The notes under the pieces were generated by a model. The model ran no database searches, was not told the origin of the DNA, and saw nothing but the letters and a program-made list of their open reading frames with translations. DNA of 41,918 nt from Armatimonadota bacterium. Lineage in GTDB: Bacteria > Armatimonadota > UBA5829 > DTJY01. Location of the stretch: positions 1-41,918 of the forward strand of contig JANYKG010000173.1 in NCBI GenBank assembly GCA_025358205.1, in the 5' to 3' direction. Of the stretch, positions 28,962-32,907 are shown piece after piece. The translations under genes and the position numbers were made by a program. Within the stretch, counting starts at the first letter, position 1. Every line of letters begins with the position of its first letter.

Positions 28962-28990
28962 TTGACAAAACGATGTATTCTGCCTATAAT
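28962..28990 (+). promoter_or_regulatory. Full-consensus sigma-70 promoter of the SOS operon
   Basis: TTGACA (28962-28967), exactly 17 bases, then TATAAT (28985-28990). This is a perfect consensus promoter, the strongest in the window. The predicted +1 is near 28997, inside the LexA palindrome. Such a promoter needs a repressor to be kept silent. Confidence 0.85.
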
Positions 28991-28991
28991 A

Positions 28992-29005
28992 CGAACATAT
29001 GTTCG
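28992..29005. promoter_or_regulatory. LexA-binding SOS box
   Basis: CGAACATATGTTCG is a perfect 14-base palindrome of the form CGAAC-N4-GTTCG, the LexA box of Bacillus and many other Gram-positive and related bacteria. It starts one base after the -10 hexamer and covers the +1, the ideal place for repression. The operon behind it encodes DinB, a classic SOS gene, which supports the assignment. Confidence 0.85.
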
Positions 29006-29095
29006 ATGAAACTCCGAAGGGCATTGTTCAGCCTGGATTATTCGGGTTAGTCGAGATCCGAGCGCAAACGACTGCAAATTGCAAAGGTTGGCACA

Positions 29096-29344
29096 ATGGA
29101 AGCCGTCACTGTAGATGAAGCCATACGAGTCTGTGTGGCTTTCGAAAAGCAAAAAGTCTTCCCTGTCTGGTTCCGATGGCGGGATAGGTACTACAAGGTA
29201 AAGGAAGTCAATTTCACCTGGATTAGCAACCAGGGATCAGCGCGACTTCATCATTACGCTGTGACGGACGGAGACAACACCTATGAGCTATGCTTCAACT
29301 CTCGTACTTTGAGATGGATGCTGGGACGGATTTATGCAGGTTAA
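29096..29344 (+). CDS. Small WRxR-type protein of the SOS operon (DUF6504-like)
   Basis: An 82-residue protein, the first solid gene after the SOS promoter and 3 bases ahead of dinB. It contains WFRWRDRYYKVKEV (25-38), HYAVTDGDNTYELCF (53-67) and WMLGRIY near 74-80. This pattern of WRxRxYxVxEV, YEL and a C-terminal W...RIY resembles the small DUF6504-type proteins next to Y-family polymerases in other bacteria. That family name is from memory and unverified. AAAGG precedes the ATG. It may be a polymerase accessory factor; no function is proven. Confidence 0.6.
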   Translation: MEAVTVDEAIRVCVAFEKQKVFPVWFRWRDRYYKVKEVNFTWISNQGSARLHHYAVTDGDNTYELCFNSRTLRWMLGRIYAG

Positions 29345-29347
29345 GAC

Positions 29348-30577
29348 ATGGACAAGAGACGTTATATCCTCTTAGTAGACATGAACGCATTTTTTGCTAG
29401 TATCGAGCAACGGTGCAACCCTGCTCTGCGCGGGAAACCGGTATTGGTGGGAGGCTCTACCAGTAAGCGTTCTGTAGTGGCAGCAGCGAGTTACGAGGCG
29501 CGACCTTTTGGAATTCACTCCGGCATGTCAATGACGGAAGCTTTGCTATTATGCCCGAATGCCGTATTAGTGGAAGGAAACTCGTCAAAGTACGCAGACA
29601 CAGCGCGCCGTGTGTTCCAAATCTGCAAGGACTACACTGATCAGATGGAAATTTACTCCATTGACGAGTGCTTCATGGATGTTACCAACACGCAGAATAT
29701 TTTCGGCGGCGCTTGGGAAATCGCTAAGGCCGTTAAGCGGCGCATACGAACAGATATGGGATTGACCTGCTCGGTGGGCATCGGGCCAAACAAAATGCTT
29801 GCCAAGCTTGCATCCGGGATGATGAAACCCGACGGCCTGGTGGAGATCAAGCCCGAAGAAATCACAGGCTTGCTTGAAAAAATGCCTGTGGAAAAGCTTC
29901 ACGGCATTGGAGATAAAACCCGGATTCGACTGGCGAAGATGGGTATTACAACTGCGGGGTCATTGGGCCGCGTACCCGTCGAAACACTCCAGCGGAGGTT
30001 TGGAGTTCTTGGGGATATTCTGCACAAAATGGGAAACGGAATAGACTGCTCCGCCGTGGTTCCATGGCATGCCGAGCCGGATGTCAAATCTGTAGGACAC
30101 TCCTATACGTTGGACCGAAATACGCGAGATTGGGATGTGATTCACCATCATCTGCTGCGACTCTCAGAGATGGTGGGGCGTAGATTGAGAAGCCAGGGCT
30201 ATGCCGGCAAGACCATAACTCTTGTTTCGAGGTATGAAGATATGCATACGTTTACCCGGCAGCGGAGCATTGCTGAGTATTTGGATGATGGATATGCCAT
30301 ATACCAGGTGGCTGCCTCTATTCTGCATAAGCACGATGCAGGTGGGCACAAAATTCGCCTGGTGGGAGTATCCGTATCAAATCTGGTAAAGGGAATATGC
30401 CAACCGGAACTCCTTGCCGGCCATCGCTACAGAGATTTGTTGAAGACCCTGGATGGCATCAACGACAAATACGGCGAGTTTACCGTTAAGCGCGCAAGCC
30501 TGATGGATGTGAAGCTACGACCGAAGACTCACGGGTTTGAGCGCAAGAAGATAATTCAGTTGGTCACTACAGCATGA
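29348..30577 (+). CDS. dinB: DNA polymerase IV (Y family)
   Basis: This translesion DNA polymerase copies damaged templates. It has 409 residues. Catalytic residues are seen: D11 in LLVDMNAFFASIE (steric gate F15 or F16) and D106-E107 in YSIDECFMD. SVGIGPNKMLAKLASGMMKPDG (thumb-entry block) lies near 140-161, LHGIGDKTRIRLAKMGI near 182-198, and a little-finger domain ends the protein. The C-terminus (RKKIIQLVTTA) has no evident QxxLF sliding-clamp motif. It is second in the LexA-controlled operon, and its stop overlaps the region where the DUF72 gene begins, so all three genes are cotranscribed. Confidence 0.92.
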   Translation: MDKRRYILLVDMNAFFASIEQRCNPALRGKPVLVGGSTSKRSVVAAASYEARPFGIHSGMSMTEALLLCPNAVLVEGNSSKYADTARRVFQICKDYTDQMEIYSIDECFMDVTNTQNIFGGAWEIAKAVKRRIRTDMGLTCSVGIGPNKMLAKLASGMMKPDGLVEIKPEEITGLLEKMPVEKLHGIGDKTRIRLAKMGITTAGSLGRVPVETLQRRFGVLGDILHKMGNGIDCSAVVPWHAEPDVKSVGHSYTLDRNTRDWDVIHHHLLRLSEMVGRRLRSQGYAGKTITLVSRYEDMHTFTRQRSIAEYLDDGYAIYQVAASILHKHDAGGHKIRLVGVSVSNLVKGICQPELLAGHRYRDLLKTLDGINDKYGEFTVKRASLMDVKLRPKTHGFERKKIIQLVTTA

Positions 30578-30591
30578 TGAGTGGAGGAACT

Positions 30592-31404
30592 ATGGGGAAA
30601 ATTCGATTGGGAACCAGTGGTTATAGCTTTCAGAGTTGGAAGGGAAACGTCTATCCTGCCACCATCAAGAATGCCGACATGTTTACTTACTACTTGAGCC
30701 GTTTTGGGTTCAACACCGTTGAGATAAATTACACGTATTACCATCTCCCGAGCGCGGCAACAATGGCATCGCATGTGAGAAAAGCGCCCGATGATTTCGA
30801 CTTTACTGTTAAGCTATTTGGTGGTATCACCCACGACCCATGGAAAACCACAGTGCTCGGTAAACTGGATACCGGGCTGTGCGAGCAGTTCATAGAAGGT
30901 GTAAAGCCGCTCACGGAATCCGGCAAGCTGGGTTGTGTATTGGCGCAGTTTCCATCTGCTATGTCCAGAAACCCGACTGCAAAGAAGTTTGTATCCACAC
31001 TTGCAGAAGCGCTGGAAGGATTGCCGCTTGTCTGTGAATTTCGTAATAGAGGGTGGGCATCCAAAGAGATCGAGCAGGAACTAAGGCAGGCTGGTATAGG
31101 GTATTGCGCCGTAGACGAGCCGCAAATCGGAGTTTTGATGCCGCTTGTTCCACTGGTGACATCGGATATAGCGTATTTGCGTCTTCATGGTCGCAATCGA
31201 AAATGGTTTCAGGATTCATCGCAGCGATATGACTACTTATACAGCAATCAGGAACTATTAGAACTGCTGCCAAAAATAAAAGCGATGGCATCATCGAGCG
31301 AAACCATGTACGTGGCCTTCAACAACTGCCACGCAGGATCAGCAGTAGTGAATGCCAAGATGATGCTGGATCTGCTTGATGAAGAATCAAACCAGGATTG
31401 GTAG
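30592..31404 (+). CDS. DUF72 (YecE-like) TIM-barrel protein in the SOS operon
   Basis: A 270-residue protein of the DUF72 family, a TIM-barrel fold of unknown function. Family blocks are IRLGTSGYSFQSWKGNVYP (4-22), FNTVEINYTYYHLPS near 41-55, FDFTVKLFGGITHD near 68-81, LAQFPSAM, VCEFRNRGW near 144-152, YLRLHGRN, and VAFNNCHAGSAVVNA near the end. The ATG at 30592 follows GGAGG at four bases; ATGs at 30574 and 30577 overlap the dinB stop. As the last gene of a LexA-controlled operon it probably serves DNA repair or damage tolerance. That is inferred from context. Confidence 0.85.
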   Translation: MGKIRLGTSGYSFQSWKGNVYPATIKNADMFTYYLSRFGFNTVEINYTYYHLPSAATMASHVRKAPDDFDFTVKLFGGITHDPWKTTVLGKLDTGLCEQFIEGVKPLTESGKLGCVLAQFPSAMSRNPTAKKFVSTLAEALEGLPLVCEFRNRGWASKEIEQELRQAGIGYCAVDEPQIGVLMPLVPLVTSDIAYLRLHGRNRKWFQDSSQRYDYLYSNQELLELLPKIKAMASSSETMYVAFNNCHAGSAVVNAKMMLDLLDEESNQDW

Positions 31405-31473: not shown

Positions 31474-32907
31474 ATGAGTTCAGAAGTAAAGACATCCTCA
31501 TCAGGCAAACAGGGGCGCGACCTGACGACCGGCAGCATTCCACGCCATCTGGTAGCGTTTGCGATTCCGATGTTCATCAGCAGCCTGCTTCAGACCGCCT
31601 ACAGCTTCGTCAATGCGTGGTGGGTCAGCAATGGGCTGGGTAAAACCGCTCTGGCGGCGGTGACTGTCAGCATGCCGATCATCTTCGTTCTTATCGCAGT
31701 GGCGTTCGGGGTTACCATGGCTGCGAACATTCTTGCCGCGCAGGCATACGGCGCGAAGGACTGGCAGTACCTGAAGCGGGTAGTAAGCAACTCGGTAATA
31801 CTGGCTGCGGTAATGAGCCTTATTTGCGTCCTGGCCGGACACATCTTCGCCGGACGGCTGATCGTGCTGGCGAAGACTGCCAAAGATACCATCCCCATGA
31901 CTGTGCGGTACATGCAGATCATTATTTGGACCGTCCCGCCTACGTTTGCCATGTTCCTGTTTGCCTCCCTCCTAAGAGGCACCGGTGACTCCACAACGCC
32001 GCTGCGCTTCCAGGCTGCTGCTCTGATATCAAACGCGATTCTTGACCCGTTACTCATGTTCGGGTGGCTCGGACTTCCGAAGCTTGGGCTGAACGGCACG
32101 GCGTTTGCGAGCATCATATCGTACACCGGCGCCGTCATCGGACTCGCAATCTACCTCCGTGCTAAGAAGCACATCGCCCGCCCGGACTGGCGTCACCTCC
32201 GCACTGATTGGGCGACGAGTTCTTTGCTTCTCAAGGTGGGACTACCTACCATGTTTCAGCAGTCATCCATCTCAATCGGTTTGTTCATCATCATGAGCCT
32301 GGTGAACACGTTTGGCAAGGACAGCATAGCGGCGTTTGGCGCTTCGATACGCATAGACAACTTCGCTTTCATGCCGGCGCTTACGGTAGGAATGGCGGTC
32401 TCCGCACTTGCGGGACAGAACATCGGCGCGAAGAAATACGACCGAGTGCAGGAGGTCTTCAAGTGGGGCATCATCATCGGATGCGGCACTACATTTATCG
32501 GGGCGCTGATGCTGGTCACGATTCCATCGTTCCTGCTCACGCTTTTCACGCGAGACCCCGTCGTAATCGCTATCGGTGTACACTATCTTCGCATCGTGGG
32601 ATCGTCGTATGTGATACTGGCCGCAATGTTCGTGAGTAACGGCGTGATAAACGGGGCTGGACACACCATGGTCACCACGATCGTCTCGATGGTCTCGCTT
32701 TGGTTTATCCGCGTGCCGCTGGCGGCCTACCTGTCCCATCGCATGCATCGAGTTGAGGGCATATGGTGGGCGATGGCTATGGGCTTCTTCATCGGCACGA
32801 TTCTCAGCCTGGCATACTACTTCTCCGGACGGTGGAAAAAACCGCTGAAGGGTTCGCATCTCGCGGAAGAGCCTATCACGCCGATCCCGGATATTGTCGT
32901 GGAATAA
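31474..32907 (+). CDS. MATE-family multidrug/solute exporter
   Basis: A 477-residue inner-membrane protein with about twelve hydrophobic helices in two similar halves, as in the MATE family of Na+ or H+ antiporters. Typical blocks are IPRHLVAFAIPMFISSLLQTA near 22, AFGVTMAANILAAQAYGAKD near 77-96, SLLRGTGDSTTPL near 167-179, and the second-half equivalents VGMAVSALAGQNIGAKKYDR near 308-327 and VSNGVINGAGHT. It starts without a leader and is followed after only 14 bases by a secreted glycosidase gene. It may export a drug, a metabolite or a glycoside; the substrate cannot be read. Confidence 0.88.
   Translation: MSSEVKTSSSGKQGRDLTTGSIPRHLVAFAIPMFISSLLQTAYSFVNAWWVSNGLGKTALAAVTVSMPIIFVLIAVAFGVTMAANILAAQAYGAKDWQYLKRVVSNSVILAAVMSLICVLAGHIFAGRLIVLAKTAKDTIPMTVRYMQIIIWTVPPTFAMFLFASLLRGTGDSTTPLRFQAAALISNAILDPLLMFGWLGLPKLGLNGTAFASIISYTGAVIGLAIYLRAKKHIARPDWRHLRTDWATSSLLLKVGLPTMFQQSSISIGLFIIMSLVNTFGKDSIAAFGASIRIDNFAFMPALTVGMAVSALAGQNIGAKKYDRVQEVFKWGIIIGCGTTFIGALMLVTIPSFLLTLFTRDPVVIAIGVHYLRIVGSSYVILAAMFVSNGVINGAGHTMVTTIVSMVSLWFIRVPLAAYLSHRMHRVEGIWWAMAMGFFIGTILSLAYYFSGRWKKPLKGSHLAEEPITPIPDIVVE

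Follow-up and report, generated by a model that had tools for sequence, protein, structure and literature searches.

Promoter, palindrome and gene order

The window, by which we mean the whole 41,918-nucleotide stretch of Armatimonadota DNA that was analysed, carries three genes in tandem behind a candidate sigma-70 promoter (28962..28990, + strand). This promoter reads TTGACA-17-TATAAT and scores 12/12 against the consensus, the sole such match in the region scanned. One base past its -10 hexamer begins a perfect palindrome, CGAAC-ATAT-GTTCG (CGAACATATGTTCG, 28992..29005, with no strand assigned), which covers the expected +1 and is a candidate Gram-positive-type LexA operator. Downstream lie genes for an 82-aa protein (29096..29344, + strand), a DinB/GeoPolY-like Y-family polymerase (29348..30577, + strand) and a 270-aa DUF72 TIM-barrel protein (30592..31404, + strand), with gaps of 3 bases between the first two and 14 bases between the second and third. 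These observations agree with the initial annotation, which had described a full-consensus promoter, a perfect palindrome on its +1 and three closely packed genes. It had also called the DUF72 protein small, which we correct here: the reading frame opens at 30574 and its credible start is the ATG at 30592, following a GGAGG at 30583-30587, which yields 270 residues. A MATE efflux gene lies 70 bp downstream of the DUF72 gene on the same strand (window positions 31474-32907) with a TATAAT only a few bases ahead of the ATG, and its transcript is possibly leaderless. With dinF, an SOS-linked MATE gene, as the comparison case, we considered whether this gene is co-transcribed with the operon and rejected the idea, given its own -10-like hexamer and its apparent lack of conservation: in two related loci, L036 and L037, what follows DUF72 is a gene outside any shared cluster.

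The zero-mismatch CGAAC-N4-GTTCG copy at 28992-29005 is the only one within the window, and the exact palindrome occurs four times in the whole genome (4.08 Mb, 200 contigs). Only the window's copy sits on a recognisable promoter; the other three sit on none, and two of them fall inside open reading frames of at least 100 aa. Because a reversed control pattern occurs 13 times in the same genome, the string itself is not rare, and it is position and conservation that make it significant. All nine of the closest loci (L034-L042) have a perfect CGAAC-N4-GTTCG in the promoter before the small gene, as does the more distant L051, and near-consensus promoters (10-12 of 12) stand at the same place in each. 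The register of the palindrome varies, in that it starts one base after the -10 hexamer in the window and in L034, a member of the same family, and fills the -35/-10 spacer in L035-L042 and L051. An identical word at two promoter registers has the look of a repressor operator and is hard to explain if a single ancestral sequence had simply been inherited.

Conservation of the whole arrangement, on which the initial annotation had staked its reading, held for its first part. Promoter, box and small gene are kept together in 9/9 of the closest relatives examined, and dinB comes next in 8/8 of those whose contig continues past the small gene. DUF72 occupies third place only in a subset of these relatives, and across the phylum it does so at a minority of ImuB-C loci.

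The ImuB-C protein and its polymerase

On sequence grounds, the 82-aa protein is a standalone ImuB-C protein (DUF6504), a known mutasome subunit. It scores 24.3 bits against PF20114, for which the cutoff is 24.2, and the same profile matches 16 of its 21 homologues. Comparison by hhalign with the C-terminal regions of three canonical ImuB proteins gave a nearly full-length alignment (P 1.9e-5, probability 77.6). A plain HMM search found no match of the 82-aa family to canonical ImuB C-termini, and PF20114 reaches the C-terminus of one ImuB at a score below cutoff. The structural model is a predicted seven-strand beta barrel (pLDDT 94.4) for which no clear relative was found among solved structures (Foldseek E no better than 0.2; Z no higher than 5.6). 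In this it resembles the ImuB-C domain, which a 2026 survey portrays as a beta barrel with a novel fold (PMC12926913). We set aside an SH3-like interpretation of the protein when no solved structure matched well, and we note that a weak match excludes nothing.

Standalone ImuB-C proteins have been treated in earlier work (Aravind et al. 2013, PMC3765255; Timinskas and Venclovas 2019, PMC6511836), and the genomic neighbours of the 82-aa family are in keeping with that identity: its homologues adjoin Y-polymerases or DnaE2, and a plasmid search recovered two weak homologues of the small protein, one of them inside a lexA-small-polY operon. The WRxR motif that had been pointed out in the 82-aa protein is present as W28-R-D-R31, and the placement of this protein as a partner beside the polymerase stood as well. 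The protein is no orphan, since it belongs to the ImuB-C family. In three loci of the same class and family (L052, L055 and L068), an ImuB-C homologue is flanked by an ImuB-like Y-polymerase and DnaE2, so close relatives alternate between two kinds of mutasome operon.

The polymerase (PF00817, E 4.5e-51; 29348-30577) is the sole Y-family member detected in this genome and is catalytically intact, with D11, D106 and E107 retained. A small all-beta ImuB-C gene beside a Y-family polymerase with intact catalytic residues is what a GeoPolY-like mutasome comprises, and the first two genes of the operon are an already known kind of unit. The clamp-binding motif that precedes the polymerase tail, QLxLF in most relatives, is weakened to QPELL in the window's enzyme. 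The tail itself contains a candidate RecA-binding motif conserved in the family, D-x-I-x-(D/E)-(K/R)-(Y/F)-G-(E/D), which looks by eye like the RecA N-terminus; pairwise and profile comparisons of the tail with the RecA N-terminus scored no better than shuffles.

The DUF72 protein and its genomic neighbourhoods

DUF72 proteins are found from E. coli to archaea and solved structures exist, and we know of no experimentally tested function for the family. The window's gene is the only DUF72 gene detected in its genome, and its product belongs to the family by profile (PF01904, E 2.2e-56, 191.8 bits versus 25.3) and by fold, with its model superposing on TM1631 (1vpq) at Z 34.5 and 1.9 A over 257 residues with 40% identity. 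After TM1631, the model is nearest to MbnB, UVDE and sugar epimerases about equally (Z 13-16). It has the endonuclease IV/UVDE type of TIM-barrel fold, with the UVDE structure 3tc3 aligning at Z 14.8 (10% identity and 3.6 A over 225 residues), though sugar epimerases reach similar scores (Z 13-14.7). Endonuclease IV holds its metals with a His-rich multi-metal ligand set, to which DUF72 is a poor fit since H83 and H201 are the only invariant histidines among 39 DUF72 proteins. The conserved residues E46, N48, K76, Q121, E151, R153, R199, H201 and N246 lie at or beside the C-terminal ends of predicted strands. All but H201 correspond to the binding-site residues proposed for Tm1631, listed in the same order as Glu42, Asn44, Lys72, Gln114, Glu143, Arg145, Arg191 and Asn239 (PMC3828134). 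Tm1631 has been predicted by computation only to be endonuclease IV-like (PMC3828134, PMC4939058), and its structure, 1vpq, is reported to contain no metal (PMC3828134).

To see which genes accompany DUF72, we fetched from named genomes the 80 DUF72 loci most similar to the window's (824 kb) and scored a locus as linked when a close neighbour on the same strand was a Y-polymerase, DnaE2, LexA, ImuB-C or RecA-like gene, calling these by similarity to a few queries, which may miss some links. By this measure 20 of the 80 loci are linked, and they come from about ten phyla, with Goldiibacteriota, Planctomycetota, Cryosericota, Caldisericota, Bacillota, Atribacterota, Effluviviaceae, Eisenbacteria, Fermentibacterota and the window's own class all represented. 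Y-polymerase is the commonest neighbour family, with 16 found near the 80 loci against an expectation of about 0.27 (P ~3e-23) that assumes a background of 1.3 Y-polymerases per 4 Mb. We also counted Atribacterota as a whole phylum, one picked for holding linked loci but whose members were not picked by similarity, and found DUF72 within 4 kb of 13/22 Y-polymerases, always on the same strand. Among the strong DinB-type enzymes of that phylum the fraction is 13/14, and the gene of the one exception stands at a contig end. At least 8 genomes in an Armatimonadota sample of 291 have adjacent DUF72-polymerase pairs.

The order ImuB-C > PolY > DUF72 recurs in Armatimonadota, Goldiibacteriota, Bacillota, Fermentibacterota, Eisenbacteria and Effluviviaceae. 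Among the linked loci, gene orders include LexA-ImuB-C-PolY-DUF72, LexA-ImuB-C-Fpg-PolY-DUF72, LexA-DUF72-DnaE2-PolY and LexA-DnaE2-RecA-like-DUF72, and a Desulfosarcina plasmid carries lexA-DUF72-polY-dnaE2. Fpg/MutM-type glycosylase genes lie inside the lexA-ImuB-C-PolY-DUF72 operons of L124, L141 and L146, which include Eisenbacteria and Effluviviaceae, and also neighbour DUF72 in L086 and L101. In one Atribacterota genome (L184, G344:C13), the DUF72 gene of the mutasome operon is broken by stops and an intact DUF72 gene is found elsewhere. Seven of ten genomes with a linked DUF72 have it as their sole copy. Mapped on the DUF72 tree, the label for linkage switches 14 times or more, with 9 switches forced by well-supported branches, versus about 25 in shuffles; the label is clustered, and together with its repeated switches this indicates that clades inherit the tie and that it has been gained or lost several times. 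Judged from these gene neighbourhoods, membership of DUF72 in such operons is a recurrent cross-phylum linkage and not a local one.

Most DUF72 genes lie away from polymerases, and any explanation of the family must cover its glycolytic as well as its translesion operons. We consider it possible, if unlikely, that DUF72 is a housekeeping sugar-phosphate or nucleotide enzyme merely placed in SOS operons, where it would serve nucleotide supply or detoxification of stress metabolites and have no direct part in lesion bypass. Such a role would suit the DUF72 genes that end gap-pgk-tpi operons in other genomes of the window's class (L071, L077, L082 and L084), the tpi-DUF72 pair of L136, the nucleoside diphosphate kinase-like genes (a family read from sequence) beside six DUF72 loci, and the proximity of the fold to sugar epimerases. 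It would also suit the pocket, whose invariant residues are all common to polymerase-linked DUF72 proteins and their gap-pgk-tpi paralogues, which argues that the chemistry is not specific to SOS and may be general. Weighing against it are the many phyla in which DUF72 recurs close to Y-polymerase, DnaE2, LexA and Fpg genes on the same strand, and the separate gains or losses of that linkage. Ordinary operon drift, in which DUF72 has been passed down next to dinB without a functional link, could explain why L034 and L039-L042 keep the box and the small-dinB pair and have no adjacent DUF72, but we find it improbable given linkage in widely separated phyla with differing gene orders and polymerases.

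For DUF72 itself, our best guess is a phosphate-binding, damage-processing TIM barrel, and we guess, with some hesitation, that damaged DNA is its substrate. A more specific proposal, toward which we are more doubtful, is that DUF72 is a new SOS lesion-processing enzyme. On this view it would be a TIM barrel poor in metal that grips phosphate and makes damaged DNA, or the ends of such DNA, ready for translesion polymerases, and LexA-controlled mutasome operons of the PolY, DnaE2 and PolB2 types would have acquired it again and again.

Probable LexA control, proposed mechanism and known systems

The genome encodes three LexA paralogues, among which is one of the type that the palindrome calls for, as the initial annotation's reading required. 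This copy, on contig C77 (L001; PF01726, E 1.2e-21), has the recognition segment SSSSTVHAHL, which we take to resemble that of B. subtilis LexA. Upstream of its own gene lies CGAACATCCTTTCG, a one-mismatch version of the box that starts one base after a TATAAG, the same register as in the window. The window's palindrome, a CGAAC-N4-GTTCG element overlapping a promoter, is presumably an SOS box of the B. subtilis type found in Gram-positive bacteria. The remaining two lexA genes have different palindromes upstream. That of the third (L003, contig C150) is AGACGCATGTCT, suggesting that the LexA paralogues may use separate operators. We rejected the palindrome upstream of lexA2 as a second LexA operator, because about 39 genomic copies (control 0) mark it as an interspersed element; this palindrome, TTATTCACG-N5-CRTGAATAA, also occurs downstream of recA, and its places in the genome include L173 and, near recA, L008.

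LexA control of the operon appears well supported by these sequence features, and we infer LexA binding at 28992-29005, induction by damage and formation of a complex. We give little credence to the alternative that another regulator, or one of the two other LexA-like proteins, binds the palindrome and that the operon lies outside the classical SOS regulon. The other paralogues with their own upstream palindromes, and the stretch before recA, in which no box was seen, would fit it. The match of the palindrome to the B. subtilis-type SOS box, the C77 LexA with its matching recognition segment and same-register box, and the fact that several related operons of other phyla start with lexA itself all speak against it.

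Our best explanation as a whole, which we consider likely, is that the window encodes a LexA-repressed, damage-induced three-gene operon for lesion bypass with DUF72 included. It builds on the promoter, palindrome, gene order, conservation, intact polymerase site, ImuB-C membership and recurrent DUF72-polymerase linkage that we observe. In undamaged cells, LexA C77 would occupy the palindrome, which covers the start point, and shut off transcription. RecA filaments on damaged DNA would then trigger LexA self-cleavage, and the three genes would be made together. The polymerase would copy past lesions, and ImuB-C would be its small partner or recruiting subunit, probably together with RecA. DUF72 would most likely act on the damaged template or its ends, at a sugar-phosphate or nucleotide phosphate, enabling bypass to start or finish.

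Among the closest known systems is the lexA-imuB-C-polY operon of Geobacter sulfurreducens (GeoPolY, PMC6511836), in which a standalone ImuB-C likewise precedes an active Y-family polymerase under LexA control. Compared with a copy on a Geobacter anodireducens plasmid, the window's polymerase is 53% identical over 284 residues and its small protein 39% identical. Unlike the Geobacter operon, the window's operon lacks lexA and has DUF72 as an extra third gene. On Geobacter plasmid pSD (L064, 5246-6390), the lexA-small-polY operon has a Y-polymerase that lacks annotation and whose reading is split by a change of frame. The LexA-controlled DnaE2 cassette also has a standalone ImuB-C; by contrast, its Y-family partner is inactive and DnaE2 does the synthesis. 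In the open-licence literature, DUF72 is not mentioned in the paper on the LexA-controlled ImuB-C/DnaE2 cassette and is not listed in the surveys of Y-family/DnaE2 operons (PMC6511836, PMC12926913), and PMC3765255 is not among the open-licence papers that match DUF72 with LexA. DUF72 does appear near a damage-induced translesion polymerase in the neighbourhoods of polB2 operons, which in bacteria are enriched in lexA too (PMC11791011). That case differs from ours in that the polymerase is of the B family and DUF72 is mentioned only in passing, and not for Y-family/DnaE2 operons. Set beside these systems, the regulation and ImuB-C identity of the window's operon are both ordinary and well supported. 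The recurrent link of DUF72 to Y-family/DnaE2 operons is the new part, for which the PolB2 remark (PMC11791011) is the only precedent we found in open-licence literature. The repeated appearance of DUF72 in translesion operons tied to LexA offers wide genomic grounds for testing it in DNA damage tolerance, and the linked operons name the hosts and partners in which its DNA-damage role can be tested.
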